Assembly: GCA_037892935.1 (NCBI GenBank) | Contig: JAYXKI010000010.1 | Span: forward strand, 248,001-312,000 | Direction of reading: 5' to 3' | DNA from: Phlebopus portentosus | Lineage: Eukaryota; Basidiomycota; Agaricomycetes; Boletales; Boletinellaceae | Length of the DNA: 64,000 nucleotides | Shown here: positions 123-31,964 of the stretch, one piece after another | Layout of the letters: the number at the start of each line of letters is the position of its first letter | Numbering within the stretch: position 1 is the first letter of the stretch | Notes under the pieces: generated by a model | What the model saw: only the letters and a program-made list of their open reading frames with translations | The model's database searches: none | What the model was told of the DNA's origin: nothing | Made by a program: the position numbers and the translations under genes

Positions 123-557
123 TCATGGTTTGGCAAGAGGGCAAATTGACCAAAGCGCCAAAGTCTGCACAAGATACTTCCGACTGAACGGCGGGTTTCG
201 TGCAAAAATGGTGCCTCGATGAAAAACATCTTGATTAAGAATGTACTTACAATTTGCAATGAAGCGACCAAAACCAAAGATGCACATGAAGATTAAATTT
301 AGGCCGGTGACAAGCATCCAAACATGATTTCGCAGGTCTCCAAAAGGTGGAGCGGAGCATTTGCCCAAACAACGAAGTCGGTGATAGTGCATTTTAAAGA
401 CGGGTTTAGTCTTAGCGTAAGTAGCTAGGTGGAGATACATGTGACATGCATTATGAATGCAGCTGAGTTGAGTGAGAGAACCGCAACAAATGTAATGAGG
501 ACCGGCTGTACGGTTCTGATCACCAGATAGTCGAACGACATGAACGATTCGAAGCAC
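123..557 (-). pseudogene. Remnant of an unrecognised gene, duplicated at about 31.5-31.85 kb
   Basis: An open frame of 144 codons with no ATG (it begins at GTG) and no recognisable domain. Its middle, read on the minus strand at about 330-440 (a stretch beginning TYAKTKPVFK), resembles the plus-strand sequence at 31,720-31,815 (TYAETKSILK, then a shared APP/APL..GD/ET segment). This fragment is therefore part of the inverted duplication rather than an isolated ORF. A hydrophobic stretch follows (LIFMCIFGFGRFIANC). The two copies have diverged and stop at different places, so I treat both as decayed exons of one unknown ancestral gene. Confidence 0.3.
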
Positions 558-1081
558 AGAGAAAGGCGCACCTTACATGTAAGTGGTCACGGAGAAACCC
601 AAATCATTAGCTGACACATGTAAGGCATAACTCTAGCCATCATTGAAAATTAACTGAACGAAATCGCGCGTAAGCAGCCGCACGTTCGAAGCGCTCGCTA
701 GCTTATCTGACCCTCGAAGAAAGGTTCGGCATCGAGTCAAAGGCTCTCAGAGCTCCAGAGCGATTTCTCTCAGCAAAGCGTCAACCACTTACTTTACCAA
801 GTTTCCCTACCGCTTATTGATACGGTTTGCACATTTCATACCAGACCTGGCGCACATCGTGCAGACTGGCCAGTAATCAGATTAGGACATGGTAGAACTT
901 CTGCTAGTGACTTTATGATTCAGTCATCACCGCGCGCAGAGATCGGGGACTTCTAGCCGTTTGATGGTAATGCTGCTATGCGAGATATCAGATATGCAAC
1001 AGATGCATAGCCCAGTTTTGCTGGGTCACACAGACATACTCACGGATATGATCGTCAACTCTTGATGCCTATGAGTGCATA

Positions 1082-1552
1082 ATGATCACTGTGGCTAGAG
1101 TCCTTTGCAGAAGCGCACACCGTTCCTGTGTCTACGATATTGTCCGTCCGTGGCCATGGTGGTTGAAGTTGGCATTCGTCGATCTCATTTCATTCGGAGA
1201 GCCAATTGGATGTGTCTATGGACTATTCGCTGGAATGTATACCTTCAAACATACTGACCCTTCTCACTAGATTAGTGCTACTTCCTGGGACAACATTTCT
1301 GTATGCTTCTAGGTAGAGTGCATAGCTTCGAAACTGGACGGAATCAAAAACTGGACGAATAATTTATGTCATAATGAAACGTGGGAAATTGCCTTTTACG
1401 CCACTCTGTGGCGTATTCCTTTGTACAAAGGATGATACTTCCTTTTCACAGAATCTACGCCCACCACGAACCTCTCGGATTAGATTCCGCATACATCTCG
1501 TCCATACTCATTCCCGATAGCTACCATCACTTCCCAAACCTTTTCTAACAAT
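1082..1552. other. Non-coding upstream region of AT-hook gene A, shared with the right arm
   Basis: No gene is supported. Positions 1,180-1,280 match the reverse complement of about 30,900-31,000, and 1,360-1,440 match the reverse complement of about 30,715-30,800, including a block rich in GCCACTCTGTGGCGT. The conservation marks it as upstream sequence carried with the duplicated cassette. The 62-codon open frame inside it is not kept intact in the right arm. Confidence 0.5.
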
Positions 1553-1782
1553 GTCTAACGGTCAGTTGATCTGCTCGCATTCAAGCCACAACCATCTAAC
1601 ATCCACAACCCGTCAATTATACAGTGCTTAAGCGAAGATGGCGAGAACTAAACGGCATAAGCGATCATTCCAGTCCCGCTTCTGCCTACATTGCGACTAG
1701 CCCCGGATCAGACTTGATAAACGGGCACACTCAAAATTTGGCCAACTGGCCACCAAAGCTTCGACGGAAGTTTGTTAAAGGC
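1552..1782 (+). other. Candidate 5' exons of AT-hook gene A
   Basis: An ATG at 1,552 (MSN) is followed by a possible intron and, after ACAG near 1,624, by an exon reading VLKRRWREL...NLANWPPKLRRKFVKG. The same exon occurs in the right arm (30,527-30,350, minus) and in copy B (about 9,120-9,300), so it probably belongs to the ancestral gene. In A and C the exon ends AAAG|GCAAGT, which would be a GC donor, while B has GTCAGT. Downstream, the frame that leads into the main ORF carries a TAA near 1,906, so how these exons join the main ORF is unresolved. Confidence 0.45.
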
Positions 1783-1973
1783 AAGTCTTGTCTTTCAGTA
1801 TAACTACAGTGTCAGTCACGCTATTCGGCGCGACCTCAACGTGGTTTCTCGAGAACACCTCCCCAAGATGGTTCTCAAACACTCAAGCCACAGCTAGACA
1901 AACTAAGTAAACCTCCGAGGCTGACAGTACTCCGACAGAGGACACAAAAGCAACCACGCCTAACGGATTTCCT

Positions 1974-3293
1974 ATGCCAATATCTTCGAGTGCTCTCCCA
2001 GAGACCGCGTCTGCAGTTGATCAGTCAACAAAGGTGGAGTCCACAATGATTTCCCCTGTCGACTCCTCATCTGGTTCCGACACGGACATCGAGTCGTCGC
2101 GTGCCACTCTCGTCACCGCTCTTGACTCATCATCGAGCCTTTTATCGTCTCTGGGTCCCTCCTCACCTTCGTCGTCATCATCTTCTACGGGTGCTTCATC
2201 GTACTCGGTCACTCAAAAAGAAGACCGACAAGCCTTGACGACCGACAAAGACCCGAGACGCAATACGAGTAAAAGGTGCCGACCTGCGACAAGTAGGCCT
2301 GATGCGCGAACTCTCAGACCACTCGGTCCGAAGCATCTCGAATTCGGGTATAAGGTTGCGAGAAAGAACCTCTCAGCTGCTGTCGCAACTGCAGTAAATG
2401 AATTGTTCGGTTTCTCCATTCCAGTACGGAACAAAGAAACCGAAGCTAAGCGGCCAGGAAAGGGATGCATCCCCTTATTGCGACAGCATCCGCTGGTACG
2501 CAAAGCAGCGGATGCAGTGGATGAGGCTGACCGGTTATTGGAGGAGGCTCTCGCACGTGGAGAGAACTGGAACACGAAGGTGCCAGACGAGTGGATGCAG
2601 CAGGACGACCAGACAGAATATGAGTGGGGTTGCGATAAACCGGAAGCCAAAAGTGAAAAGGAGACCAGAAGATTAAGGGCACGCATTGTACGTCCTAACA
2701 ATCTCGAGTCGAATTCTCGCAAGCGCCGGAATCCCGAAGTAAAGAAAAACGACGTCTCCGGCGAGAAAGAGATGAGCGCGTCAGGCTCAGGTGACGCCGT
2801 TGTACAACCTAAAGGAAAATCCATCGACATATCATCGTTCTCAACGACGACTGGCAGTCTCAATGAGCGCGAACGACGATCGCGTTCGCAATCACCTTCG
2901 GCTCCCAAGTTGGACCCTTCCTCCTCTCGCGCTGTGAGCGCAGAACCCGATGTGCCCCCTGCTCCCGCATTCGGGAAGCGCAGTCGTGGTCGGCCCACAA
3001 AGACTGCTTTTGAGACTGCGGGCAGCGTGATGGAAACAGAGACGTCCGCTGTGACAGCCCAGAGTCCAGTCCTGGGTTCCTCAATGATGAAGTTTCGCTT
3101 AGATCCGCCCGCAAAAAGTCAACCACCTGCCGCACCACGAGTACAGCGCAAGAGAGGAAGACCTCGAAAGTATCCTCTACCGCCTCCCGTTCCATCACTG
3201 GACCAATTGCCGAAGAACGCTGCTGCAGCAATGGCTGCGCAAGACTCGGAAAGGCGCTCTTCGAAGAGGCGAAAAATCATTTCTTCCAAATAA
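1974..3293 (+). CDS. Ser-rich AT-hook nuclear protein, copy A
   Basis: The main open frame gives 439 residues. The N-terminal ~85 residues are low-complexity Ser/Thr/Pro. The conserved core (about residues 110-235) contains LRPLGPKHLEF, ELFGF and DEADRLLEEALARGENW and is close to the copy at 28,816-30,072. The C-terminus carries basic hooks (RGRPTK; KRGRPRKYP, a classic AT-hook) and ends in a lysine/arginine-rich tail (SKRRKI) fit for nuclear import. AT-hooks bind the minor groove of AT-rich DNA, so a chromatin or transcription role is inferred; no catalytic domain is visible. The ATG at 1,974 is the first in this frame after a TAA near 1,906; upstream exons are possible. The core is far better kept than the flanks, which suggests selection. 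Function is otherwise unknown. Confidence 0.65.
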   Translation: MPISSSALPETASAVDQSTKVESTMISPVDSSSGSDTDIESSRATLVTALDSSSSLLSSLGPSSPSSSSSSTGASSYSVTQKEDRQALTTDKDPRRNTSKRCRPATSRPDARTLRPLGPKHLEFGYKVARKNLSAAVATAVNELFGFSIPVRNKETEAKRPGKGCIPLLRQHPLVRKAADAVDEADRLLEEALARGENWNTKVPDEWMQQDDQTEYEWGCDKPEAKSEKETRRLRARIVRPNNLESNSRKRRNPEVKKNDVSGEKEMSASGSGDAVVQPKGKSIDISSFSTTTGSLNERERRSRSQSPSAPKLDPSSSRAVSAEPDVPPAPAFGKRSRGRPTKTAFETAGSVMETETSAVTAQSPVLGSSMMKFRLDPPAKSQPPAAPRVQRKRGRPRKYPLPPPVPSLDQLPKNAAAAMAAQDSERRSSKRRKIISSK

Positions 3294-4130: not shown

Positions 4131-4558
4131 TTTGAAGGTCGCATTGATATCACGTCTGCCAGTGAGTCGCTCGTCCTCGTCGAGGACTCGGGTAAGAAAG
4201 AATAGAAGTCATGCTTAGTTAGGGAAGCCGATCAGTGATCGACGATTGTAGTACCAGTACCTTCAAGTTTTGCAGTGTGCAGAATCGTGGTCGACTATAA
4301 CTCTGCTACGTACCATCATTACCGTATCGGCATATAAACGTTCTGCTTGGATTGGTATCCTATTTACTCTGGATTGAAACACCTGATCTGCGAATATGTG
4401 TAGAAATGTTGTTACTGGCAGCACTTCGAGCCAACTGGCCCGAGAATTCAGAATTCGACTGCATGTACCTAAAACGCGTCTCTTGTATTCACTCGACACA
4501 ACAAAACATTCGAGTGGCAGCAAGTCACGACCGCGTTTCATACTCCGACAGCCAGCAG

Positions 4559-4565
4559 TATAAAT
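4559..4565 (+). promoter_or_regulatory. TATA box of membrane-protein gene A
   Basis: TATAAAT lies 66 bp before the ATG at 4,631 and is followed by a pyrimidine-rich stretch (CTCTCCCCCCACTCTCCTCC). Box and tract are both conserved upstream of the inverted paralogue (26,222-26,228), which supports a real core promoter. Confidence 0.7.
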
Positions 4566-4630
4566 CTTGCCACTCTCCCCCCACTCTCCTCCTCATAACT
4601 TGATCTCCTTCTTTGTGCACGCGCGCAAAA

Positions 4631-7539
4631 ATGATCTGGTTTACGCATATACTTGTCTTTCTAGCTCAAGCATTAGTCTTAATCCACGCAGATGTCTGCC
4701 GTACCCTTGATATCATCAATACCCATACGTTTCCCTACCATCGCCACGCTTCCACCCACCTCTATGGCCTCCTTTGCTCCTCCACTTCTCAGGATTCCGA
4801 TTACGCTCCTTATACTCCTGAACCTGAAACCTGGTATCTTTCAACTCCTGAACCTATCGTCCTGTCTCTTCCTCCCCCCGAGCCTGTAGCTCCCATCGTA
4901 GTCCTCCCCTCGCCCACGCGTACGGTGGCACCCTTCATCGCTTCGGACACCTGCTCGCTTTCTTCTGACTACTCTTCCTATACGGACGGTCCGACTGCTC
5001 TATCGACGGAACCGACCGGGAACTCCGGTGATGTCGATGACCAGGATACAGCTGCACATTACCGAGTATCTCAGGCTCTAAGTAAGGATGCTTTCAAGGC
5101 AAAACGTCCACAACCGATCCATGTCGAAGTTTATATCGGTCTCGCTGTCTGTTGCATTTCCACATTACTCGGTGCTTTCATCGTTGTCTCTCGGACTGAG
5201 TCTGCACATGCAAAGGAAACATCCACCGTTCCCCGTAGAAGGTCAACGTCTCCTTATAAGGCAGAAACCGAGCCCGATGGCGAACACAATCATTCCTCCT
5301 TCGTATTTGCTCAGCCTGAGGTATGCTCCGTCTTCATCATTGGGGGTTCTGGTCCGGTGCTGACTGTGTACAGTCTCAATTTCCGTTCTCGGACATGGTT
5401 TACGAACAAGCAATTGCATCGACACTCGCTGAGCTGGCTTTCACTACTACCCAGGACTGCGACGGAACAACTCATGGCACTATCAATCTCGTAAGAATTG
5501 AGCTGTTTCCTCGTAGATGTTGAAGGTGATTATCTATTGTTGTTCAGGACATGGAACACAACTGCGGCAGCAACCTCGGATCCGGACGACAGGAAGAAGA
5601 CACTTTCGTAAATGTACGCTCAAAGTTTATTGCTAAAGATTTTCACCTAATGCTGTCCATGTATAGCCTCGATTTGACTCCTCGGACGGTGTTCAGCAGG
5701 ATCGGAAGACTTCTCTGCGAGGCTCGGGATTGCTCTGCATCGCCACCAGCACCACTAGAACCGTCTCCAATAAGAACGCCGTCGTGACTTACAACAAGCG
5801 CCGCATGAATAGGTCGGAAACAAGGTCCAATGTCGTCACAATGGTGAGACTGAATTTCACCGTCTCGCACCGTGCAAGTCTAATCATAGTGCCACTTGTT
5901 GGGTCTAGTCTAATGACGAAAGCCTCGCTTGTACCACGGCAAATGATATCACAGGTGCTACCGTCTCGACCTCTGAACTGACGCTCGTTGCGCTGCCTAG
6001 CCAGGAAGGTGAATTGAGCTCCAAGTCGGAAATTGTTTCGTTCTCGGGTCTCATTGAGAGCTCCGGGAGTTCTGATAGTTCCGCTTCCGTCTCCATTACT
6101 TTGAATGATGGCATGGGCAACTTTTTGGTATGTGAACCAAGCTAGTTCTTGCTGACAAAGCCTTATTCTTTTCGCTTTATCCGTCCACTATCAATCAGGA
6201 CAAAGCGAACGGTGTCAAGGAATTTTTATACGCGGAACAAGCCGACGATTTGGAAGCAGCTGCTTTAAATTGCTCGGCGCACGCTGTCGTTCCTTCCCGT
6301 GGCTCAGAAGAGGATGAGCGCGTCGTCATTCCTTTGGGACTGAGTACGAGTATCTGGGCGCATAATACGGAGGACTTGTCCGAACAGTCCTCAGAAAGCG
6401 CCAGTCCTGAGTCCGACGTAAGTCATGATTTTTGAAGCAATTCGCGATGCATTCTGACTTCTTCTTCGATACCGTACTAAAGCTCACCGAAGCCGCTTCG
6501 CGACACGGTAAGAATGCGTCCTTCGAGGTGTCGACTTTCAGCACCCTTGCAGTAAGTTCTCCCGATGACTTGAAGAACAGAGTTTAATCGTAACATGTTT
6601 GCAGTCAACGCAGAGTTCTCCGTCTGTCGGCTCTACTAGTGCAGGCGCACCGAGAAAGCACGCTGGATTTCTTCGCGCCCTTCATGCTGTCATCAAGGAA
6701 TCTGTGGAAGGAAGGCAGAAGGAAGGATTCTCGTTGAGTAAGTCTCCTGAATACGTTCAATGAAATACGATTCACTGGGGTTTATCTGGTTTTCTCTCGG
6801 TAGGGCCCAGTCTCTTGAGAAGCACCGTCACTCAAGACGCTACGAATGGTCGATTTCCACCCAACCAGGTTCCACGTATGCTTCCGATAGCTTCGATCGC
6901 AATGCAATATGAGCTGACTACTTTTCTCTTGGTAGCCGAAGCTATTCCCTCGCCTTCTCGGTGCATTCCGAGGAAAGTTGGCGAGTCCGCTCACTCACTT
7001 TCGCGTAAGTCCCCAGTTGGCGAAGATGCAATGCAAGAGAAGCTGACAGCCTTCACCTCGTCATCCAAAGCTATGCGGTCGCGACCCGAGAGTCTCTGCG
7101 CCTCAGGGGAAGACAATCATAGAAATGAACTACCAACTACGCGTATGTCCGTGATTTGTAAAGCAACCTGCGGAGATTGACTGCTCTTCTCTTCCTAGCC
7201 GAAGCTACTCCTTTGAAACGCGCTTCTCGCAGTTCGTCCGGGGGCGGCAACACGAATAATGAATCTGCTCGCAGTAAGTTTTCCGAATAGCTGAAAAGTC
7301 CTGCTGGAAGCTGAACCGCCTTGTCTCGGTAGAGAATAGCGCTCAAGGGAAATGCGATACTTCTCGCGGCTCTCCGGGAGACGCACATGACAATTCGCAA
7401 TCAAGACAGCGTATGTTCTCCGAATATGTCGAACATGCTGTGGTGTAAATTGACTGTTTTCGGCCTTACAGAAAACCTGCCTCGCTACAAGCCTGGTCGT
7501 GGTCCATCAGGTATGCCCTGGATACGAAGACCCATATAG
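4631..7539 (+). CDS. Secreted/single-pass membrane protein with mini-exon tail, copy A
   Basis: The first exon opens with a signal peptide (MIWFTHILVFLAQALVLIHA). A Pro/Glu/Ser-rich ectodomain with TPEP repeats follows, then one membrane segment (about residues 180-200, YIGLAVCCISTLLGAFIVV) and a basic patch (RRR). At least a dozen exons follow. From 6,606 on the frame can be traced through symmetric phase-1 mini-exons of 72, 69, 72, 75 and 78 nt to a stop at 7,537-7,539. The predicted cytoplasmic part is Ser-rich with no known fold. The start is the first ATG after a conserved TATA box; the ORF extends upstream only through a non-ATG codon. The inverted paralogue keeps the same exon pattern and stop context, so both copies look functional. 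Role unknown; a cell-surface sensor or anchor is the inference. Confidence 0.65.
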
Positions 7540-7585
7540 GCATGCAATTGCCGAGCTGTCGCGTCATCCCTTCGAGTACACCTAA

Positions 7586-7684
7586 ATCACCTATACACCA
7601 TGCTGAAACAGCCTGATTAGACCAGGGTCAAAGGGCCCATGACCAGGGTCTAATTGGACCGGTTCGGCATGGCGTATAGGTGAT
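7586..7684. repeat. 99-bp near-perfect palindrome (foldback element), arm A
   Basis: The sequence reads ATCACCTATAC..CCATGC at one end and GCATGG..GTATAGGTGAT at the other, with the centre at GGGCCC (7,633-7,638). The two halves match over nearly their whole length, so the strand can fold into a ~48-bp hairpin. A second copy with the same centre and ends lies at 23,105-23,203. It sits 46 bp past the stop codon of the membrane-protein gene. Confidence 0.85.
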
Positions 7685-7699
7685 CGCAATGGAATTAAT

Positions 7700-8650
7700 C
7701 TCCATTGCTTTTCCGATATTCTTATCCAAGTCGATCACTCTCTCTTTGGTTTACGCGTCTTCGTATCTCGGTTCTTGATTCGTGTCTGCCCATCTCTGTA
7801 TGTAGTTTCGTCTCTCTCTCTAGCTCATTTCTCTTCGTATTCGATCGTCTGCTTGGACTGTGTACCCTTTTCTTGTGTATTCTCTCCAAGCGACTGCTCG
7901 ACGCCTCTTCGATTCTCACACTTTATCCCAACTTCCCCGTATTTTATTTCCACATATCCGCGTCTCTTTTCTTGATTCCATCCTGCCCAACTCTGTATAT
8001 ACTTTGTCCCTCCGTATTCGGCTGTCTGCTTGGACAGTGATTCCTTTTTCTTTCCTAGAGCTTACCTGCTCGTCTTTCTCATGCTTCATTCCTACGCATT
8101 TTCTCTGATACAAGACGATATTTCAGTGCAAACCCTCCATCATTCTTCTACTATATATTTTGTCTAGTGTTCTTTTGTTTTCACATCCCCGTGTCTCTTT
8201 TCTTGGTTCCCTGCCCAGCTCTATATGTACTTTCGTCTTTCTCCGGCTTTTTCTCTTCGTATTCGGCTATTTGCTTGATCAGCGTTTCCTTTTTTTCTTA
8301 GCGCCTACCTGCCGCTTCTTCATCTCTCATACTTTATTCTATTTCACATATTTTCTCTGATACAAGCCGATATCTCAGCATGGTTCCGAACCTCCATCAC
8401 TCTTCTGCCATGATATTTTGTCTTTTGTTTCCACATCTTCGTGTCTCTTTTCTTGGTTTTGATTACCCATCTCCATTTGTCGTTTCGTCTCTCTCCGACG
8501 CATTTCTGTTTGTATTCAGCTGCCCGCTTGGACTGTGTTCCATTTTCTTGTGTAGTCTCCCAGCGGTCGTCTGCCGCCTCTTCTATTTCTCTCTATTTCT
8601 ACGTATTTCCTCTCGTACAAAACGATTTCTTAGTACAGAAATAATTTGCC
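7700..8650. repeat. Pyrimidine-rich tandem repeat, about four units of 205-250 bp (arm A)
   Basis: Units share the phrases CGTGTCTCTTTTCTTG, TCTTCGTATTCGGCTG and GCTTGGACTGTG. Anchors fall near 7,753, 7,961, 8,190 and 8,440. The top strand is strongly C/T-rich. Open frames through it encode repetitive hydrophobic peptides but no exon structure, so I read it as a minisatellite-like block. Three inverted units occur at the same place in the other arm (22,290-23,060). Confidence 0.75.
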
Positions 8651-9049
8651 TGTTTGTTTCTTATGTATAAGTGTGCCGATGTATTAGAAATATCTACGAC
8701 TTTTTGCGCGACTTCTAATTAGTCTCTGAAAGTCGCCGCACACACATCATGTGCCCAGCATTTTCAGTGAGACGAATGCGCTGTAAACTTTGGCAACGAA
8801 AGCGACTGTGAGCGACACATCCGTAGGATTGAACTAAAATGAAAAGCGGATGTAAATAGAGCATCGGTTGGCAGGTTATCGCGATCAACTCGATTCTTTG
8901 GTATGACAACACAACAAGCATGTGTTTCATCGTCTCATTTCGCCTTCTCTTTGCACCGAATCTGGTTCCGACCTCGGAGACAAGATACCATATCCGCAGC
9001 AGGAAAAGGAACAGTCCAGGTGTCCATCACTTCCTAATCTTTTCCTAAC

Positions 9050-10640
9050 CATGTGGTAAGCTGACCTGCTCTCCCTTCAAGCATTAAGCATCTACATCTC
9101 CTCGATATTAGTGCTTAGGGCTTAAGCACAGACTGAGAGAACCGGAAGGCATGAGGATTCAAGTATCAAACCGTAGCTTTGCGATGCATCCAGTTCCGCT
9201 GCTGTCTACATATCGACTGGCCCCGAGCCAGATTCGGTAAACGGGCACATTCGAGATGCAACCAACTGGCCACCAGAGCTTCGATGGAAGTTTATAAAAA
9301 GGTCAGTCGAGTTCTTTTGATGTAACTATTGTGTCAATCGCGCTGTTAGGCGCGACTTCTTGGGAATGCCTCTCCCAAACACTCAAGCCACAGTTAGACA
9401 AACCATCCGAGGCTAGCAGTGCTCCAGTCACAGAGATCACGAAGTCAACTAAAAATATTCCTCACGACGCCGCTGCTCCGAAACCTTCAATTGTTCTCTC
9501 AGGGACCGTGACAAAGGTGGAGATCATAATGCTTTTCCCTGTCGGCTCAGCATCTGGTTCCGACACGAATTGTAGCATGCCACTCCCGTCACCGCTCTTG
9601 ACTCATCATCAAGCTCTTCATCACCTCCGCTCCCCTCCTCATCCTCTACGGGTGCTTCATCGTACTCGGTCACTCAAAAGGAAGACCAACAAACCTCCAC
9701 GACCGACGATGTTCCAAGGCGCAACGCGCGCAGAGAACGCCAGCCTGCGACAAGTAGACTCGACGCAAGAACCCTTAGGCCACTCGGTCCGAAGCATCTT
9801 GAGTACTGGTTTAAGGTCGCGACGAAGAACCTCTCAGCTGTTGCGCAACTGCATGTTTGGTCTATCCATTTCAGTGAGAACTTAAGTACGAAGGTACCGG
9901 ACGAGTGGATGCAGCATGATGATCAGGCAGAATATGAGAGGGGCTACAAGAAACCGGAAGCTGAAAATGGAAGGGAAATCAGAAGGTTAAGGGCACGCAT
10001 TGTACGTCCTCACGCTTCTGAGTCGCGTAAGCGATCTCGCAAGCGCTGGACTCTCGAAGTGAAGATAAACGACGTCTCCAGAGAGAAAGAGACGAACTCG
10101 TCAGGCTCAGTTGATCGCACTGTAGAACTTAACGTAAAATGCACCGACGCATCCTTGTACTTCTCACCAACTGACAGTCTTGATAAGCGCGAACGATGAT
10201 CGCGTCCACGTTCAACTTCGGTTCTCAGGCCGGATCCTTCCTCCTCGCCCGCCGTGATCGCAGAGCTTGACGTGCCATCTGCCCCAGCGTCCCAGAAGCG
10301 TAGTTGTAGGCAGCCCAAAGAGCCCGCTCCTGAGACTTCGGCTAGCGTGATGGAAATAGACATGTCTGTCATGACACCTCAGAGTCCAGTCCCGGCTTCA
10401 TCGAGGATGAAGTTCAGGTTAGAGCGGAGAGCAGACCACCTCCCGTACCATCCGTGAATCGTAGAAGCGGACGACCTCGAAAGCACCCGATGGTGCCCCC
10501 TGTCCCGGCACTGGGACAATTACCGAAGAATGCCACTGCTGCGAAGCCCGCGACGGATGTGCAGGAGTCAAAAGGCGCTCTTCAAAGAGGTGAATTATCG
10601 TCTCTTCTTAAATTGTACTCAGATGACAACCCCGCAACGC
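9050..10640 (+). pseudogene. Broken AT-hook gene, copy B
   Basis: This is a third copy of the Ser-rich AT-hook gene in the same orientation as copy A. It retains the 5' exon (MKVYKK-like end near 9,290), the SGSDT motif near 9,555, a fragment of the core near 9,780-9,860 (HSVRSI frame, shifted), the RRLRARIVRP segment near 9,985 and the C-terminal GRPRKHP hook near 10,470. Frameshifts after about 9,570, a deletion of the DEADRLLEEALARG core between about 9,860 and 9,890, and a stop at 10,197-10,199 break the frame. Its 3' flank still matches that of copy A. It is useful as an outgroup for the other two copies. Confidence 0.7.
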
Positions 10641-11230
10641 GTTTAACGATCCGATCCCTTTATTGTCTTCCTCTTTCGTCTCTCTGTCTTTGTCCACAGC
10701 ATTGTCCCGTTTTTCTCCTATCATCATATCAGTGTCACCTTTATCTAGCACAATATCGGAAGGCTCACGCACAAAAGTATTGTACACTTCACAATATTCT
10801 TTCCCTTCTTATTCGTCTCTGGCGGATAGCATCATACCAAGCTCTCTATGCATGCAGGATCCGTAGACGGCCAATGATATAGCAGAAGTGAATCTGACAT
10901 CATTTTGAGCAATCACAGCAAGAATTGGTGGGTGCGAGAATTGGTGAGTGTGAAAGAACAGAGTTGGCGTACATAAGCAAATATGATTCCTAGTCCTCAA
11001 CACTTTCCAATGTCCGGACGCCCTTCACGGCTTCACGACGCTTCCGCTTCAAATTACGCGTCAGCCCGGGGGTCCCAGATTAAATATCAAGTGACGAGGT
11101 CAGAAGGGCGCGGGGAAAAGGTACATTTAGGATCAAAATATAACTGTAGCCTCGCGTATTAGGTGCGGTCCTGGTGGGTTGTAGGAGATCAGAATTGGAA
11201 CATAGTCAGACTGGTGGTGATGGCGCGGGA
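10641..11230. other. 3' flank of AT-hook copy B
   Basis: Conserved with 3,330-3,720 (for example GACATCATTTTGAGCAATCACAGCAAGAATTGG at about 10,898), but without a gene. It separates the broken AT-hook copy from the remnant of the convergent gene. Confidence 0.45.
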
Positions 11231-12560: not shown

Positions 12561-12759
12561 CAGTAGCGCGTGCGCGATAAAGACATACTGTAGCTAATAA
12601 CAGAGAACAACAAAGAACATGGCTGCTTCTGGCTGACCAACTCGGAGAATTCCGTGTTCTTTCTTCATGGCTCGAACACGTCACCCACACCTTCAACACG
12701 TTCCCAAGGTTCAAGTGCTCGCAAGAACTTGAACCCTGTACTTATCCTGCAGCGTTGCA

Positions 12760-13902: not shown

Positions 13903-13962
13903 GTCAAGCTCTCTCCTCTCAAAGGCGCTTCTAGCACTTACAACAGCCGCACTCCCTAAACC

Positions 13963-17919: not shown

Positions 17920-20900
17920 TCATACTGTCTGCGTCATCTCCACAGGTAGCTGGCTATACCCGGCTTTATCTCTCCTTGAGCTCACAAGCGAGCACACAGT
18001 ATTCCACGCATCTGCAATCGCTCTCCTGATACTCTCCAAGACCGTTTCCCCTGGTCGTTGTTCCCCGGGCATCAAGCTCTCCTCCGGCCTTCTCCACCAG
18101 CGCAACAGCAAGCTGCTCGTCACAACGCTCACGCTCGAGAACGCCATCATCGCGCCGGCCATCATAGGGTGGAGATGTAATCCGAAGGGCAAGAAAAGAC
18201 CCATGGCGAGCGGGATGCCAAAGATGTTGTAGATGCACGCCCAGACGAGGTTCCGGCGGATGACGCCGTAGATGGAGCGCGAGAGGTGCAGTGCGGCGAC
18301 GACGTCGAGGAGATCGGACCGCATGAGCACGATGTCGGCTGCCTCGATCGCGACGGATGTCCCGGAGGAGAGTGCAATCCCGACGTCGGCGGCGACGAGC
18401 GCGGGAGAGTCATTTATTCCATCGCCGACCTGGAAATGAAGTATGTAATTAGCATTGAACAAGTAAGAGAGAGAAAGGAAAAAGTACCATTGCGACACCA
18501 CCGCGATCCTTCTCCATCAACTCCGCAACAACTTTCGCTTTACCCTTCGGGCTCATCCGTGCCCAGACACCATTAGTACTAATCCCCACTTCCTTGGCGA
18601 TCGCCATAGCTGTCGTCCGTCCGTCTCCTGTCATCATGTTCACTTCGATACCCATAGCCCGCAGTGCTTTAATCGCACGCGCAGATGAAGGTTTAGGCAC
18701 ATCCGACAGGGAGATGGCTAGGATTGGCCGGACATGTGCGGACGATTTCTGGGATGCTGACGTGGAACTAGCGAGCGAGACGAAGATGACTGTTCGGCCT
18801 TGTTCTTCTTCCCGTTCCGCAAAAGACGACAACTCCGTGGGTAAATGCGCGTCATCATATTCCGACTGAGAGACGAATCGCGCCGTACCGACGTACAGCG
18901 TGTAACACAGACTCGAGGCTTCCAGCGTCATCGTCGATTTGACACCTGCGCCCGTAACACTCTCAAATGCATCAATATTCACTTCCGGGACATTGGACAT
19001 CGACTTGGCGAGCACGTCCTTCCCATACGTCGCAACGGCCTTAGCAAGCGGGTGTTCCGAGCGCGCTTCCGCAGCAGCAACCATCGCAAGGGCCGCAGCG
19101 CGCGAAGTCACTCCATCCGCACAGGGCGCCGAGAGTGGCTGCTCAATGAACTTGCCTACTTTCGGTGTCGGGTGCCATCTGCATGAGGATCGGCTTCAAG
19201 ACCGGATGGTACCCACGCCAGCCCGACGACTTGTAACTTCCCTTCTGTGACTGTACCAGTCTTGTCAAGTATGATTCGCCTGATGCTTTTGCTAGCTTCC
19301 AAAGCCCGTCCACCCTTGATCAGGATCCCGTTCTGCGCACCGACGCCAGTACCAACCATGATCGCCGTCGGAGTGCTCAGTCCAAGTGCACAGGGGCACG
19401 CAACAACCACAACAGATATGCACAACTTCAAACAGACCGCGAGCTTGCTCGTCCCATGCCCGTGGAATATCGTTGGGAGTTTCATATCAGGAACAATATG
19501 CGAGATGATCATCCATCCTACAAAGGTGATCACCGCCAGAGATATAACGGCTGGGACGAAGAACCCAGCAACGCGATCTGCGAAAGCCTGAATGGGAGCT
19601 TTGTTTGTCTGTGCGTCTTCAACGAGTTTTACGATCTGAGCGAGTGCGGTGTCCTTCCCTGCTCGTGTAACTTGCATGTCGAACGTCCCTAGACCATTGA
19701 CCGTCCCGCCGATAACGTTGTCTCCCACCCGCTTGATGACAGGTACAGGCTCGCCTGTCACTGCGCTTTCATCGACACTGGAAGAACCACGAATGACAGT
19801 CCCGTCTGCAGGGACTTTATCTCCCGGCACCAGCTTGATAATATCGCCAGGCTGAATGAGTTCCGTCGCGATCCTCTTTTCCTGTGTACACTCGGGTGCG
19901 TCAGTGTAAATTGTAGCCATACTCGGACTCAAAGCCATAAGATCCGTAAGTGCGGCGCTCGTCTTTCCCTTCGCCTTGTTCTCTAGGAATCGTCCAAGAG
20001 AGACGAACATGATAAGCATTGTGCTCGTGTCGAAGAACACGGATGGTCTGCATTCCCATGGCTCTTCCGGGCAGAAAGCGGCGTAGATCATTGCCAGTAA
20101 TGAATAAATATATGCAGCACTTGTGCCGATAGTAACAAGTACGTCCATAGTGGCAGAACCATGTTTCAGCGCTTTATACGAGTTCTTGTAGAACTTCTTC
20201 CCTAACCAGAATTGTACCGGTGTAGTCAGTGCGAGTGCTAGGACATCGCCGAGGAATACCCCATGGATAATCTTGTAGTTCACAATTGGCCTGAGGAAAG
20301 AAATATGCTGGCACACCATACTGATGAAGAACACAGGCATGGCGAACGAGAAGGCCGTCCAGAATCGCGCTCGCCATTCTTGGATGTCCTTCGATCGCGT
20401 AAGTGAACGTGACTGTGTCGCGTCTTCGTGGTCTGAAACGACAGCGTCGAAACCCATATCCTCTATTCGCTCAACCAACTCTCTCGGGCTGACGAGTACT
20501 CGGTCGAACTCAATTTGAGCTGTTTCTGTTGTGAGTGACACAGCGACTTTCGAGACACCGGGCGTGGATGATAGACCCGTCTCGATGGTGTTTGTGCATG
20601 CTGAACATGTCATGCCAAATATTCGTAACGTAATGGTATCGGTCCGACTTGGAGGAATGAGCGTCGCGTCAAACCCCATATCGCTAATTTCCTGTAATCA
20701 GAGATGTCAGAATGAATCATGAATTCCAAAGATCTCATCAGCATACATCAATGATCTTTTCGACCGTCCATAATGATGGGTCGTATTCGACAACACCACG
20801 CTCAGCGAGTAAGGCCACCTTCACCGAATGAATACCATCCTGACCTCTGAGCATCCCCTCTATTGACTAGACAGCATTTTTCAGCTTTCTAGTCATTGAG

Positions 20901-22289: not shown

Positions 22290-23060
22290 TGTTACTTCTG
22301 CGCTAGAAAATCGTCTTGTATAAGAGGAAATGCGCATAAATAGGGATGACATACGGGAAACGGAAGAAGGAAGAGGAGGCAGGCAAACGCTGAGAGAGAA
22401 AGCGGAAGAAAATGGAACACAATCCAAGCAGGCAACTGAATATGAAGAGAAATGGAGCCGGAGAGAAACAAAATGATAAACAGAGATGGGCAGTCGGGAA
22501 TCAAGAAAAGAGAACCGGAGAAGTAGAAGCAAGAAACACTAGATAAGATATCATAGCAGAATAAAAATGGAGGCCATGCACTGAGATACCATCCTGTGCG
22601 AGAGAAAATGTGTAGAAGTGAAGAACGAGAAATGGAAGAGGTGGCAAGCAGTCGCTAGAAAAGAAGGGTACACGGTCCAAGCAAACAACCGAGTGCGAAG
22701 AGAAATGAGCCAGAAGGAGACGAAGATACATACATGATGGGCAGGAAGGAGTCAAGAAAAGAGACATGGGAATGAGGAAACAAAAGAGACACTAGACAAA
22801 ATTCCAAAGCAGAAGAATGATGGAGGTTGTGAACTGAGGTACCGTGTTCTACAAGAAGAAATACGTAGAGGCAGAGACAAAGTGTATGAGAATTGGAAGA
22901 GGCGACAGATAATCGCTAGCAGAGAATACGCAAAAGAAGGGAACTCGATCCATGCAGGCAACCGAATACGAGAGAAAGAGTTGGACAGAGACGAGCAGAC
23001 GGGAATCAAGAATAGAGTCATGAAAGGGCGGAGACAAAAAAGAAAGTGATCAACTTCAAT
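22290..23060. repeat. Purine-rich (inverted) tandem repeat, about three 250-bp units, arm C
   Basis: Inverted counterpart of 7,700-8,650. Units are marked by GGGAATCAAGAAAAGAGA-type phrases near 22,495, 22,748 and 22,998 and by TCCAAGCAGGCAAC or similar near 22,425, 22,676 and 22,948. Unit number differs from arm A, consistent with slippage or unequal exchange after duplication. Confidence 0.75.
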
Positions 23061-23104: not shown

Positions 23105-23203
23105 ATCACCTCCATGCCATGCTGAATCAGTCTAATTAGACCCTGGTCATGGGCCCTTTGACCCTGGTCTAATCAGACTGCTTCAGCATGGCGTGTAGGT
23201 GAT
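23105..23203. repeat. 99-bp near-perfect palindrome, arm C
   Basis: Same ends (ATCACC/GGTGAT), CCATGC arms and GGGCCC centre as 7,586-7,684. Base differences between the two copies are often matched on the other half of the hairpin (for example T/A changes in the GATTAGACC / GGTCTAATC arms), as expected if the fold, or intrastrand correction, keeps the halves alike. Confidence 0.85.
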
Positions 23204-23248: not shown

Positions 23249-26156
23249 CTATTCGGGTCTTCGTACCCAAGGCATACCGTATGGGCCACGACCAGGCTTA
23301 TAGTGAGACAGGCTTGCTGTAAGGCCAAAAACAGTCAGTTTGATCACAGCATATTCGACATATTCGGAGAACATACGCTGTCTTGATTGCGAATTCTCAT
23401 GTGCGTCTCCCGGAGAGCCGCGAGAAGTATCGCATTTCCCTTGAGCGCTGCTCTCTACCGAGACAAGGCGGTTCAGCTTGCAGCAGGATATTCCAGCTAT
23501 TCGGAAAACTTACTGCGAGCAGATTCATTATTTATGTTGCCGCCCCCGGATGAACTGCAAGAAGAAACACGTTTCAAGGGAGTAGCTCCGGCTAGGAAAA
23601 GAGCGGTCAATCTCCGCAGGTCGCTTTGAAATCACGGACTTACACGTACTTGGTAGTGCATTTCTATGATTGTCTTCCCCTGAGGCGCAGAGACTCTCGG
23701 ATCGCGACCGCATAGCTTTGGATGACGAGACGAAGGCTGTCAGCATGTCTCGCATTGCATCTTCGCCAACTGGAGACTTACGCGAAAGTGAGTGAGTGGA
23801 CTCGCCAACTTTCCTCGGAATGCACCGAGAAGGCGAGGGAATAGCTTCGGCTACCAAGAGAAAAGTAGTCAGCTCATATTGCATTGCAGTCGACTATCGG
23901 AAGCATACGTGGAACCTGGTTGGGCGGAAATTGACCATCTGTAGCATCTCGAGTGACGATGCTTCGCAAGAGACCGGGCTCTATCAAGAGAAAACCAGAT
24001 AAACCCCAATGAGTTGCATTTCATTCAATGTATCCAGGAGACTTACTCAGCGAGAATCCTTCCTTCTGCCTTCCTTCCACAGATTCCTTGATGGCAGCAT
24101 GAAAGGCGCGAAGAAATCCAGTGTGCTTTCTTGGTGCCCTTGCGCTAGTGGGGCCGAAAGACGGAGAACTCTGCATAGACCGCAAACACATTACGATTAA
24201 ACTCTGCTCTTCAAACCATCGGGAGAACTCACTGCAAGGGTACTAGAAGTCGACACCCCGAAGGACGCATTCTTGCCGGGTTGCGAAGCGACCCCGGTGA
24301 GCTTTATTGTGGTATCGAAAACGACGTCAGAATGCATCGCGAATTGCTTAAAAAATCATGACTTACGTCGGATTTAGAACTGACGCTTCCTGAGGATTGT
24401 TCGGACAGGTCCTCCATACCACGCGCCCAGATACTCGCACTCAGTCCCAAAGGAACGACGATGCGCTCATCCTCTTCTGAGCCACGGGAAGGAACGACAG
24501 CGTGCGCCGAGAAATTCAAAACAGCTGCTCTCAAACCGTCGGCTTGTTTCGCGTATAAAAAATCCTTGTCACCATTTGCTTTGTCCTGATAGCGGACGGA
24601 CAAAACGGAAAGAATAAGGCTTTGTCGGCGAGAACTAGCTTAATTCACATACCAAAAGGTCATTCATCCGATCCTTCAACGTGGTCGAGACGGACGCAGA
24701 ACCGTTAGAATTCCCGGAGCTCTCAATGAGGCCCGGGAACAAAACAATTTCTGACTTGGAGCCCAATTCATCTTTTTGGCTAGGCAGCGCAACGAGCGTT
24801 AGTTCAGAGGCCGAGACGGTAACATCTGTGATATCATTTGACGTAGTACAAGCGAGACCCTCGTCGTTAGACTAGACCCAACAGATGGCATTATGATCAG
24901 AATTTCACGGTACGAGTTGGCAAGTAAACAACTCAGTCTCACCGTTGTGTCGACATTGGACCTTGTTTCTGACTCATTCAAGCAGCGCTTGTTGTACATC
25001 GCGACCGTGTCCTTTTGAAGACGGTTCTAGTGGTGCTGGTGGCGATGCAGAGCAATCCCGAGTCTCGAACAGAAGTCTTCTGATCCTGCTGGAAACCGTC
25101 CGACGAGTCAAAGCGAGGCTATACATGTACAGGATCAGGCAGGAATCCTCAGCAACAACCATTAATCGTACACTTACGGTGTTTTCTTCCTGTTGTCCGG
25201 ATCCGATGTTGCCGCCAATGTGGTTTTCCATCTTCTGAACAACGATGGATAGTCAACTTCAACATCTAAGTACGAGGAAACAGCTCGATTCATTACGAGA
25301 TTGATAGTGCCATGAGTTGTTCCGTCGCAGTCCTGGGTAGTAGTGAAGGCCAGCTCAGCGAGTGTTGATGCAATTGCCTGTTCGTAAACCATGTCCGAGA
25401 ATGGGAACTGAGACTGTACACGATCAGCTCCAGGAAAGCATCCCCAATGACGAAGACGGAACATACCTCGGGCTGAGAAAATACAAAGGAGGAATGATTG
25501 TGTCCGCCATCGAGCTCGGTTTCTGTCTTATAAGGAGATCTTGACCTTCTACGGGGAATGTTGGATGTTTGCCTTTCATGTACAGACTCAATCTGAGAGA
25601 CAACTATGAGAGCACCGACTAGTATAGAAATACAGCAGACGGCGAGGCCAATATAAACTTCGACATGGATCGGTTGTGGACGTTCTGCCTTGAAAGCATC
25701 CTTTCTCAGAGCCTGAGATACTCGGTAATGTGCAGCCGTATCCTTGTTATAGACATCACTGGAGTTCCCGGTCGGTTCCGTCGATAGAGCAGTTGCAGCG
25801 TCCGTATAGGGAGAGTAGTCAGAAGAAAGTGAGCAGGTGTCCGAAGCGATGAAGGGTGCCACCGTACGCGTGGACGAGGGGAGGACTACGACGGGAGCTA
25901 CAGGCTCAGGGGCAGGGAGGGACAGGACGACAGGTTCAGGAATTGAAAGATACCAGGTTTCAGGTTCAGGAGCATAGGGAGCGTGATCGGAGTCCTGAGA
26001 AGTGGAGGAGCAGAGGAGGCCATAGAGGTGGGTGGAAGCGTGGCGATGGTAGGGAAACGTATGGGTATTGATAACATCAAGGGTACGGCAGACATCGGCG
26101 TGGATTAAGACTAATGCTTGAGCTAGAAAGACAAGTATCGGCGTAAACCAGATCAT
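23249..26156 (-). CDS. Secreted/single-pass membrane protein with mini-exon tail, copy C
   Basis: Inverted paralogue of the gene at 4,631-7,539. It has the signal peptide (MIWFTPILVFLAQALVLIHA), a Pro/Glu-rich ectodomain with PEPETWYL and PEPVAPVVV, and one membrane helix (YIGLAVCCISILVGALIVV). The frame runs through the same exon order, including the symmetric mini-exons (one begins PEAIPSPSRCIPRKVGES in both copies), to a stop at 23,251-23,249 in the matching context (MPW.RRP.stop). Substitutions cluster in the ectodomain and the juxtamembrane stretch, and the mini-exons are very similar. The ATG at 26,156 follows a conserved TATA box. Membrane topology is inferred from hydrophobicity; no ligand or enzymatic domain is visible. 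Whether both copies are expressed cannot be told from sequence. Confidence 0.65.
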
Positions 26157-26639: not shown

Positions 26640-28386
26640 TCACTCACTGCTCAGTGCTCAGGCGTGCGTGCTATCGTCGATCTCGATTTATCTGCCGCCG
26701 ATACTGAGGCTCGGTTTTCTTCCTCCGCCGTTGTCAGGGCTCTCGATAGCCGCGTAGATTCGATGCCCTTGCCCTTGGTCACTGGCAGCTAGGCCGCCGG
26801 TCCGTACGCCTACATAGCAATATTCAAGAAAACGAGGTCGCAGCTTCTGAAAATGTAGGCTTCGAAAAGCCTTCATTTTTTACACTTATGATCTGACATT
26901 TTCTTGAAAAGTATGAACTTTTGAGCAGAATAGCATGAAAGGGTGCCAAGCTATATATCGGCGAAGCAAAACCTGGTTTTCGAGAACGGTGAGTTTGCTT
27001 GTTTGAACAACTTTTTTTTCTGTTTCAGACTCCGCCTTCTGGCAGCCTCTGTCTCATGTCTACAACTCGGCAAAATCAAGCGAGAGAACGAGAATAATTC
27101 TGACAATTGACCAACTTAGCGACGGCGACTCCTACGCGACGTACAGCGCGTGCAAGCTGCCCACATGTCTCTTGCCTCTATTCCATCATTTCGCCCTCGT
27201 TGGCGCGTTGTGCCTCTCGGCCGACTACTCTCCCTATGCTCATGTCTTCTTCGACCACTACGCGCACTAGCTTCGTCCGTTGCGCAAAAGCAAATGGGTA
27301 TTGCGAAAAGAAGAAAGGCGAAGATTAAAACAATGGTACGGGCTAGGAGAAGGAAAATTCGACGAGAAGAGCGGTGGTAGATTCACGATCGGAATCATGC
27401 TTAAAAGTGGAAGTGGGATTACTCTACCTGATAAGAGCACGACAAAGGCCCTCGACAGTCAGTCGCAATCGAGCAGCATCTCAAGGAGGTCGTTGATAAT
27501 TACGTACATTTTCCTTCCTCGTCCCTTTCGCCTCTCCTGGGTCCTTCAACTGTCCTTCATCACTTCTTGTTGACCTTGACGCTGACATCGTTGCTGGTGA
27601 ACTTCATCACGTCGAGCGCCAGCATGAGGTGGCCATAAACCTTGCTGAAGAGATATCCCGCTCTCTCAACTTACTTGACTTCCACCTCGGTTCCGGCGGT
27701 GGAAGAGACAAACCTTGCAACTATGATGATGTTGAGAGTCTCTGCGGCTTGGTATTGATGTCGAACGGTCTGCAGCTTGCTTGATTGCAACCGAGATACC
27801 CAGTGTCGAGGGTGATGAGACCGAATTTATTCCACGTTCGCCATAAGTCGAGTCTATGACCGAGACGGAGGAGCAAATGCTGTGACTGAGAATACTTCAA
27901 GTCCTCGTGTCTACAGAGGAGCTGTAAGCAAAGTAGCTCAAACTGAGACGATATCCTCGGTCCAAGCAACACGCTCAAAGACATGTTCGCTCCCAAACTT
28001 GAGGACGTTATGTTTGTTTCATGTCACAAGGTTTTCGTCTCTCACTTCTGAACGCTCCTTTTGTAGGCAGTTTTTCAGTCGTCGGCAATCTTGATCTCGA
28101 GTTGGACGAAGAGATTCCTACTATCTGCGCGCCGCTACCAGTCCGACTATCTTCCGATTCTGATCTACAACCAACTAAAAGGCACACCTAGTTTCCTCCC
28201 TCGCCAGTCTGTGATTATGTTTAATCCCAATGGTCCTTTTTCTTCCCCCCATTCCCTTCTTCCGAACTCCTCATTGTATATCAAGTCCGGAGATCCTCGA
28301 GACATCTTTTCGGGGGAAATAAACTTCTTTCGCATGAAGGATGAGGAAGAGATACGTGCACGCTGGGAGTCGCGGAAGGTCTAACT
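26640..28386 (+). pseudogene. Convergent gene of the cassette, longest copy (C), probably decayed
   Basis: The fullest version of the gene that faces the AT-hook gene tail-to-tail. Coding-like pieces are SVDLDLSAADTEARFSSS-type sequence near 26,665, an exon-intron border near 26,985 (AACG|GTGAGT, then TTTCAG near 27,035), a basic stretch near 27,290-27,380 (AKRRKAKIKTM), an acidic/helical stretch at 27,580-27,780 (HHVERQHEVAINLAEEISRS, then YDDVESLCGLVLMSNG) and the end segment NLDLELDEEIPTICAP near 28,087. The pieces are in different frames with stops between them, so it is either a many-exon gene I could not join or a pseudogene. No family recognised. The shorter relatives in A and B favour decay. 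Confidence 0.4.
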
Positions 28387-28815: not shown

Positions 28816-30072
28816 TTAATTGGAAATAACGATCTTCCGCCTCTTTGAAGGGCGCCTTTCTGATTCTTGCGCAGCCATCGCTGCAGCGGCGTTCTTCGGT
28901 AATTGGTCCAGCGTTGGGACCGGAGGCGGCAGAGGATGCTTTCGAGGTCTTCCTCTCTTGCGCTTTACGGGCGGCACAGGTGGCGGTTTGCTTTCCGTGG
29001 GCGGATCTAGCCTGAACCTCATCATAGATGAGCCCAGGATTGGAATCTGGATCATTACGGCAGTGGTCTCCATTTCCATCACACTGCCAGAGGTATCAGG
29101 AATAGCCCTTTGGGGCCTACCACGATTGCGCTTCTCGGACACGGGAGCAAGAGGCACGTTAGCTTCTGCGATCACAGCGGGCGCGAAGGAAGGATCCGAT
29201 TCGGGAACTGAAACTGAACGTGATCGCGATCGTCGTTCGCGCTCACCGAGGCCGCCAATTGTGGTATCCAAAGACAGATCAGTGGATTTTGCTCTAATTT
29301 GTGGAGTATCGTCAACTGGGCCCGACGGATTCGCCTCTTTGTTGTCGGATGCTTCGTCTTCCTCCACTTCGGGAGTCTGACGCTTTCGAGTTCGTTCACG
29401 AGGTTTAAAGGTTTTTGGGAGGTCAATGCGAGCTTTTATCCTCCTCGCTTTCTTTTCGGTTTCAGCTTCTGGTTCATTATAAGCCCATTCATAATCTGGG
29501 TGTTTTTCGTTCCATTCCAATTCCTTTGGAATTGCCGAGGCCCAGTTTTCTCCGCGGGCGAGTGCCTCCTCCAATAAACGATCGGCCTCATCGACGGCAC
29601 TCGCTGCTCTGCGTACCAGTGGGTGCTGTCGCAACAGAGGTATACACTCCTTCCCTGGTCGCTTAGCTTCGGTCTCCTCATTTCTCACTGGAACGGAGAA
29701 ACCGAATAATTCGTTTACCGCAATTGCTACAGCGGCTGACAGTTTTTTCCTCGCGACCTTATAATCGTGCTCGAGATGTCTCGGGCCGAGCGGTCTGAGT
29801 GAGTTGTTTGATCCCGCGTCAGGTCTATTTATAGCAGCTTGGCGCCTGTTTCCCGTGTTACGCCTGGGAGCATCGTCTGAGCAGATTCGTTGGTCTTCCT
29901 CCTGAGTGACCGAGTACGATGAAGCATCCGTGGAGGACGAGGGCGACGAAGAAGAGGAGGGGGCCGGAGATGATGCAGAGCTTGATGGTGGCGACTCAAG
30001 AGCAGTGACAGGAGTGGCACGCGACGAGCCGATGTCCGTGTCGGGACCAGATGTTGAGTCAACGCAGACCAT
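28816..30072 (-). CDS. Ser-rich AT-hook nuclear protein, copy C
   Basis: Open frame of 418 residues, paralogue of 1,974-3,293. The Ser/Pro-rich N-terminus is shorter. The core (LRPLGPRHLEH, ELFGFSVPVRN, DEADRLLEEALARGENW) is nearly identical to copy A. Two basic hooks follow (KRNRGRPQR; KRKRGRPRKHP, a classic AT-hook), with the same SKRRKI tail. Between core and hooks the copies differ by many substitutions and small indels. In this frame sequence continues upstream of the first ATG (SAELT, STTPSKTAS) to a TAA near 30,207, as in copy A, so the same unresolved 5' joining problem applies. Candidate 5' exons lie at 30,598-30,350, including LKRRWRELKG and NLANWPPKLRRKFVKG. Predicted nuclear DNA-binding protein; target and role unknown. 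Confidence 0.65.
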   Translation of the reverse strand: MVCVDSTSGPDTDIGSSRATPVTALESPPSSSASSPAPSSSSSPSSSTDASSYSVTQEEDQRICSDDAPRRNTGNRRQAAINRPDAGSNNSLRPLGPRHLEHDYKVARKKLSAAVAIAVNELFGFSVPVRNEETEAKRPGKECIPLLRQHPLVRRAASAVDEADRLLEEALARGENWASAIPKELEWNEKHPDYEWAYNEPEAETEKKARRIKARIDLPKTFKPRERTRKRQTPEVEEDEASDNKEANPSGPVDDTPQIRAKSTDLSLDTTIGGLGERERRSRSRSVSVPESDPSFAPAVIAEANVPLAPVSEKRNRGRPQRAIPDTSGSVMEMETTAVMIQIPILGSSMMRFRLDPPTESKPPPVPPVKRKRGRPRKHPLPPPVPTLDQLPKNAAAAMAAQESERRPSKRRKIVISN

Positions 30073-30349
30073 TGTGAGCTCCGCACTTGTCGACTGATCG
30101 GTCGCAGACGCGGTTTTCGAGGGAGTAGTCGAAGGAGTTGGTACAGAAATGCCGTGAGGGATAGTCGTTTTTGTGTTCTCTGAAGTTGGGGTACTGTCAG
30201 CCTCGGAAGTTTACTTAGTTTGTCCAGCTGTGGCTTGAGTGTTTGAGAACCACCTTGGGGAGGTGTTCCCGAGAAGCCGCGTTGAAGTCGCGCCAAATAG
30301 CGTGATTGACGCTGTAGTTATACTAAAAGACGAGACTTGCCTTTAACAA

Positions 30350-30598
30350 ACTTCCGTCGAAGCTTTGGTGGCCAGTTAGCCAAATTTTGAACGTGCCCGC
30401 TTACCAAATCTGGTCCGGGGCTAGTCATAATGTAGACAGAACTGGTACTGGAACGATCGCAAAGCTGAAAGTGCTTTCCATCTCGATCGCACATGCCCTT
30501 AAGTTCTCGCCATCTTCGCTTAAGCACTGTATAATTGACGGGGTGGACGTTAGATGGTTGTGGCTTGAAGGCAAGCAGATCAACTGACCGTTAGACAT
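30350..30598 (-). other. Candidate 5' exons of AT-hook gene C
   Basis: ATG at 30,598 (MSN), intron, then an exon containing LKRRWRELKGM and NLANWPPKLRRKFVKG, ending AAAG|GCAAGT (possible GC donor). It holds an insertion of about 11 codons (around DRDGKHFQLCDR) absent from copy A. Confidence 0.45.
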
Positions 30599-31406
30599 TG
30601 CCGGAAAAGGATTGGGAAGTGATGGCAGCTATTGTGAGTGAGTATGGACGAGATGTATACGGAATCTAAGCCGAATCGTTCGTGGTGGATGCGGGTTCTG
30701 TGCAAAGGTGTACGATCCTTTGTACTGCACCTACAAAGGAATACGCACGCCACTCTGTGGCGTAAAAGGCAATTTCCCACGACTCATTATGACAAATTAT
30801 TTAATCAGCTTTTGAGTCCTCTCTGTCACGTTCAAATTTCGAACCCATTGCACTCTGCCTAGAAGCATACGGAAACTCTGTACCTGGACATAGCAAGCAT
30901 TAAGCTGGTAATGAGTTTTACTATGTGTTTGAAGGTATACTTTCAGCGCAATCCCTAGTCACAATCAATTGGATCTCCAAATGAAATAAGATCGATCAAG
31001 CTCCTCACTGCGTTCTGACTCACGACAATATCGGAACCACCTATATATCCGCAGTGATCGTTATATAATTATAGACGCAGATGCTTACGTCCATGAGTGT
31101 GATTCTCAGTAATCCTGTGACGGTGCGTTTGGTGATATTTCACAGGGCATCATCATTTAGTACCAGTCAAATGGTTAGAAGTTGCCAATTGATACGTGGT
31201 GGAGTGGACATGGTTGGAACGTAGAGCGCCTAGCGTAATCTCGACTCTGCCCGACACAGATCACTGCCTAGTCTTGTTAATCTGCGTTGGGTCTGGTGTG
31301 AACTGTGATACAATGCGCAAGCTATTTTATGAATATGCGAAGGAAACTTAGTAGATGCGGTGGGGTGGATGATGCCGAAATATGATCGCCTTGAAGTTTT
31401 GACTCC

Positions 31407-31831
31407 ATGCCGGAGTTTCTTCGCAGGTCAGATAAGTTTCGAGAGCTTAGAAAATGCGACAGCTTCAAAAAAAAAAAAGAAAAGGGCGCAATTTCGTTCA
31501 ATTTACTTTCAGTAATGGCTTTGGCTAGTAAAGCATGCCTCATATGCTTGACTGGTCCGAGCCCGCGATTAGTTTTCTGGGACATCTTGAGGTACGTCTT
31601 TCTCTGCACTTCAAGTCGTGCTCCAGATCTAGAACGAAGGACTTCTCTGGCACATCTCGCTCAAGTCAGTTCAGAAAGCTGCCTTTTACGATGCATCACA
31701 TTTTCATCCATCCAGCTACTTACGCAGAGACTAAGTCCATCCTTAAATACACTATGAGCAACTTCATTATTTGGGTAAATGCTCCGCTCCTCCTTTCAGA
31801 GACCTGTGACACCATGCTTGTATGCGTGTGA
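31407..31831 (+). pseudogene. Remnant of an unrecognised gene (mirror of 123-557)
   Basis: The plus-strand frame around 31,715-31,830 (TYAETKSILKY, NAPLLLSETCDTML) aligns to the minus-strand frame at about 330-440. The upstream part has no match there. No domain, no clear start. It marks the outer limit of the inverted duplication. Confidence 0.3.
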
Positions 31832-31964
31832 TTGCAGTGCGTACTTAGTTTTGGTCAGACGCCACACTAACATCTCGTTTCCAGCCGATTTTCGAAATTA
31901 GAAGGCATGGTTTGGGGAATGTAACCGTTGAAAGTCCTAGACGCACTTTTGAGAAGGGAGGATT

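Follow-up and report, generated by a model that had tools for sequence, protein, structure and literature searches.

Does a pair of long mirror-image arms flanking a copper ATPase gene record one inverted duplication, and have the arms recombined with one another? These questions are raised by a 64,000-nucleotide stretch of contig C10 (C10:248001-312000, hereafter the window) in a 38.4-Mb genome of 23 contigs. The first-pass annotation had described two similar arms carrying a three-gene cassette, had suggested that both copies are used, and had proposed that the arms could recombine so as to invert the ATPase segment or change copy number. Our analysis indicates that the mirror-image arms are real, that they are not a single clean duplication, and that the locus is a genuine though patchy inverted cluster of paralogues, whose arms have exchanged sequence in the past according to evidence that is good but indirect.

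The window is free of Ns, and four copies of the telomere repeat TTAGGG found no match in the genome. It also holds ordinary-looking genes at 46969-48111, 58818-59948 and 61437-62015, with FAD_binding_3, DEP and CNH domain matches, and a short direct repeat (52762-53147 and 55013-55397, spaced by about 2.25 kb and 71-72% identical) amid unassigned open reading frames. Two AT-rich inverted repeats (56622-57105 and 57542-57850; GC 0.34 and 0.30) pair with themselves along nearly their whole length, at -262 and -198 kcal/mol when folded as RNA, and in our reading look like foldback or MITE-type elements.

Self-comparison of the window places arm A at about 1.2-8.7 kb on the plus strand and arm B at about 22.2-31.0 kb on the minus strand. 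The arms are joined by three minus-strand matches, which pair 1179-3748 with 28364-30995 (74% identity, E = 0), 4005-7944 with 22859-26833 (85%, E = 0) and 7964-8713 with 22219-23017 (70%, E about 1e-90); a short match of 310-451 to 31691-31829 marks their outer end. The mirror symmetry therefore stands, but the antidiagonal is broken, identity along it is uneven, and positions 451 to 1179 align at only about 0.55-0.71. At the interruption, arm B has some 1.2-1.5 kb (26.9-28.3 kb) that is mostly missing from arm A, where an 83-bp match (3793-3875) is the remnant. Common to both arms are an AT-hook gene (H), a spliced gene for a one-pass membrane protein (M), a hairpin-forming palindrome and a degenerate tandem repeat:

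1911..3293, plus strand: H_A, the AT-hook gene of arm A, an open frame with a Pfam AT_hook match (17.8 bits) and codon signal, in the A clade of the tree below
28816..30210, minus strand: H_B, the AT-hook gene of arm B, an open frame 60-64% identical to H_A
4631..5320, plus strand: M_A exon 1, 690 nt, open with codon signal, followed by a 53-nt intron
25467..26156, minus strand: M_B exon 1, 690 nt, open, with a 53-nt intron after it
7586..7684: palindrome (hairpin) of arm A, from self-comparison and folding
23105..23203: palindrome (hairpin) of arm B, from self-comparison and folding
7741..8640: degenerate tandem repeat of arm A, from self-comparison
22370..22994: degenerate tandem repeat of arm B, from self-comparison

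The palindrome was correctly placed in both arms. The tandem repeat is present in both as degenerate copies at offsets of roughly 230-270 bp in the self-comparison, but Tandem Repeats Finder reported only a single short 25-bp array there. Two of the three cassette genes, H and M, are likewise found in each arm, whereas the third, a 'convergent gene' assigned to both, is DNA without coding signal. The stretch is mostly absent from arm A and so is not shared by both arms, and it is rejected as a gene because the codon scan, whose power was limited by gaps, gave no codon-level signal in the part common to arm B and to a third copy, C. Nor is the two-arm picture complete, since further copies of H and M exist. 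The stretch in question and the third H lie at:

26956..28175: stretch in arm B, mostly missing from arm A, that probably gave rise to the 'convergent gene' call; also in C at 11174-12269
9024..11068, plus strand: H_C, a degenerate third H with stops and with most of the conserved core lost

The idea of one duplication around the copper ATPase fails on the geometry of the locus. Matched pairs are mirrored about at least four distinct centres (about 15.4, 19.7, 23.1 and 26.7 kb, computed from the self-comparison), so that several events are needed. The spacer does contain the ATPase, F-box and DM9-like genes proposed for it, but the last two have inverted paralogues that sit outside arm B:

12500..13600, plus strand: element X, with an inverted partner at about 32.7-33.45 kb
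13900..15380, plus strand: DM9-like gene, several coding stretches, with a Pfam DM9 match and codon signal
15801..17591, plus strand: F-box-like gene, an open reading frame whose Pfam match is below the cut-off
17920..20697, minus strand: copper-type P-ATPase exons (HMA, E1-E2 ATPase and hydrolase parts); the mapped exons exclude the 5' end
33881..35167, minus strand: inverted paralogue whose protein is 37% identical to that of the F-box-like gene
38017..39600, minus strand: inverted paralogue of the DM9-like gene, with a stop inside the six-frame match

Genome copy searches, which score the best candidates only, gave nine other matches for the F-box protein (the best being the inverted neighbour at 33.9-35.2 kb), two for the DM9 protein (the better being the inverted neighbour at about 38 kb) and one for element X, inverted and in two pieces. 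Element X is not accepted as a gene, having no codon signal in a scan of gap-limited power. The DM9 protein search returned three unnamed proteins and no Sanghuangporus locus tags among its 17 candidates. The copper ATPase is the only spacer gene examined that lacks a nearby copy, and it is the sole match on C10 among the 23 E1-E2 ATPase matches listed genome-wide.

The history of the arms is best approached through H. The window H proteins match proteins of Sanghuangporus (Hymenochaetaceae, Basidiomycota), with 96-97% identity to those of S. sanghuang, which suggests a close relative or strain of that species as the source of the window; H_B is 96% identical to S. sanghuang ACEPAF_1003 and, despite having no Pfam match of its own, carries the same KRKRGRPRK stretch as H_A. 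A tree of nine proteins (the two window H proteins and seven of the eight database matches, P0008 being omitted) separates an A clade of H_A with S. sanghuang 1010, S. vaninii 3321 and S. weigelae 3571 (support 100/99) from a B clade of H_B with S. sanghuang 1003, S. vaninii 3326 and S. baumii 4267 (support 87/93, short of the starred level). The tree is rooted on a single long row of deviant composition (P0007), which makes the rooting weak. Both paralogues are found in only two named species, S. sanghuang and S. vaninii; in each of these the pair is recorded on a contig of one and the same length, with locus tags seven and five apart. Since H_A and H_B fall in separate clades that each contain both species, the duplication of H predates the split between S. 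sanghuang and S. vaninii, and because each copy groups with its orthologues, concerted evolution is not seen for H. The synonymous divergence between H_A and H_B is 0.743 with a dN/dS of 0.31. The confidently predicted part of the H structure is a helical core only (mean pLDDT 48.5), and the codon scan is a rough guide that also signalled on the opposite strand within H (2363-2603). Beyond A, B and C, H has two weaker genome matches, both on contig C4 and one with eight stops. One locus on that contig (C4:1967807-1968355) is a 34% relative of H in a 573-aa open frame, and may be a better conserved representative of that family.

M tells a different story. From its sequence we read the M_A protein as having a predicted signal-type start, a Ser/Thr/Pro-rich part and one hydrophobic segment. 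Further copies lie on the same contig at C10:243.3 kb, to the left of the window (M0), and at C10:149.8 kb (P150), with a weak match at 140.5 kb. Exon 1 is open in all four copies (690 nt in A and B, 666 in M0 and 726 in P150), which disposes of P150 as a pseudogene despite three TGA codons in the search listing, and a 53-nt intron follows in each; the GGTATG start and CTGA(C/T) branch-like motif of this intron were imposed by the script, the equal length was not. With dN/dS of 0.37-0.47 among the copies, and 0.47 between A and B, M is in all likelihood a genuine gene. When its unspliced reading frame served as the query of a protein search, none of the 1785 candidates reached E <= 1e-3, so in deposited relatives M is unannotated, absent or missed. 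The frames of H and M are open in both arms, as had been reported, and the dN/dS values point to purifying selection on both pairs, which fits the proposal that both copies are used; all four genes look functional on these sequence criteria.

In exon 1 of M the synonymous divergence between the arms is only 0.149, as against 0.666 and 0.655 to M0 and 0.88-0.93 to P150. The values of about 0.66 mean that synonymous change in M is not inherently slow, and the contrast with H (0.743 versus 0.149) is strong (Fisher p about 7e-15, with sites taken as independent). The identity profile shows the same step, with 0.66-0.82 over the H reading frame, 0.86-0.97 over that of M and 0.83-0.93 over the non-coding DNA that follows (5.6-7.6 kb), for which identity to M0 is 0.49-0.70; the codon scan gave one borderline window there (5923-6097, z 3.0). 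The intervals concerned are:

4370..7700, plus strand: young tract on the arm A side; 3315 positions align with arm B, at 89.5% identity
23087..26415, minus strand: young tract on the arm B side, from the identity profile, with approximate limits
1336..1910, plus strand: smaller high-identity patch upstream of H_A, without codon signal

In the smaller patch the arms are identical at 0.881, compared with 0.695 and 0.682 to C. Homology between the arms does not stop where the main tract does but extends, at lower identity, past either end. A young tract with older homologous flanks on both sides points to conversion inside old inverted repeats, and it is probable that non-allelic gene conversion replaced the M block of one arm, some 3.3 kb (4.37-7.7 kb), with the version from the other. 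The suggestion that the arms can recombine is thereby supported by a signature of past exchange, in both the identity profile and the synonymous divergence; from this signature we infer conversion as the process, as well as any direction or date for it. The sequence of events would be that lineage-restricted genes were repeatedly duplicated to form a cluster in which the H-M unit was also present in inverted orientation, that the arms diverged after a duplication of H older than the separation of S. sanghuang from S. vaninii, and that replacement of the M block in one arm by the other arm's copy later reset its divergence. The patch upstream of H may share this conversion history. In the middle of the H reading frame A is closer to C than to B, so that histories are mixed; A and C may have exchanged sequence or may be a later tandem pair.

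The hairpin may have contributed to this process. A palindrome that folds to a long hairpin is present in each of the four M blocks, and it was found nowhere else in genome searches that skip very common words. In the arms its position is the 3' border of the main young tract, and because palindromes are described as break-prone sites (PMC7999016), it may have helped to start the breaks that led to exchange. A structured RNA was considered and rejected: no Rfam family reaches its gathering score in the window, and although six of 30 pairs are changed on both sides with pairing kept among the four sequences, G-U and A-C cells are near equal (six and four, by our own count), which means that neither strand is favoured and that correction at the DNA level explains the pairing changes equally well.

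An alternative is that an inverted copy of the M block alone was inserted later beside an older H_B. Such an event would account for M_A and M_B being much younger than the two H genes, and at C10:149.8 kb M occurs with no H detected beside it. It would leave unexplained the lower-identity homology past both ends of the young tract and the gene order common to the two arms, with H upstream of M in each. We therefore consider a later copy unlikely, with the caveat that a tree from this genome alone does not separate it from conversion.

A second possibility is a flip/flop region, in which frequent recombination between the arms would maintain the ATPase segment in both orientations. The precedent, and the nearest described system that we found, is on Saccharomyces chromosome XIV, where 4.2-kb repeats that are 97.6% identical in S288C flank a segment found in both orientations; the repeats are homogenised, and the authors propose that inversion is a side effect of gene conversion (Salzberg et al. 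2022, PMC9731477). As in yeast, inverted repeats of lineage-restricted, fast-evolving genes here flank a multi-gene segment and bear signs of homogenisation by conversion, and the segment has unique content (together with genes that have paralogues outside arm B). What is absent is near-identity along the whole repeat. The similarity attributed to the arms does not hold along their length: H is about 74% identical, the young tract 89.5%, most of the arm length 66-90%, and the longest exact runs of 162 bp and 90 bp would be short for frequent crossing-over. The locus is thus more diverged and only partly homogenised compared with the yeast repeats, and is read here in one orientation. It resembles that system in part without being counted as a member, and frequent flipping seems improbable. 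Nothing in the data points to the proposed inversion or copy-number change of the ATPase segment.

A single old duplication of even age, with M more constrained than H, fares worse still. The 250 bp before M (window 4390-4640) are 97-98% identical in A, B and M0 and 82% in P150, far more conserved than the rest of M0, which could reflect strong promoter constraint or three-way conversion. Conservation of this stretch in three copies is what constraint would predict, but the synonymous divergence of M between the arms is 0.15 against 0.66 to M0 and the non-coding DNA has the same step, which makes an even age very hard to sustain. An assembly artefact is scarcely credible, given arms that are about 10-30% different and the proximity of both H paralogues in S. 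sanghuang and S. vaninii.

Fungal segments between inverted copies are also known from Hansenula polymorpha, where inversion is reported to switch mating type (PMC4238957). A mating-type locus is rejected here, since C10 has no STE3 or Homeobox_KN match in six-frame genome searches (STE3 matches are on C9 and C6, Homeobox_KN matches on C14 and C1). Literature searches found nothing on gene conversion in Sanghuangporus, no title on such arms for segmental duplication in Hymenochaetales, and none among the matches listed for basidiomycete gene conversion with inverted repeats.

A more far-reaching version of the conversion reading is that the arms still exchange sequence while selection keeps the two AT-hook proteins distinct, and that the ATPase segment is now and then flipped as a side effect. 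The young patches (1336-1910 and 4370-7700) flank an H that has remained distinct as H_A and H_B in at least two further species. We regard this reading as unlikely; were it true, the arms would share one version of the membrane protein and keep two versions of the DNA-binding protein. The copying of patches between inverted gene blocks is a known kind of genome event, patchy in the present case. Should gene conversion not be the explanation, the locus would be an ordinary cluster of duplicated genes. If it is, a mushroom genome would carry inverted paralogues that predate a species split and have been patch-copied since, which would bear on whether homogenised inverted repeats of the Saccharomyces type occur in basidiomycetes.
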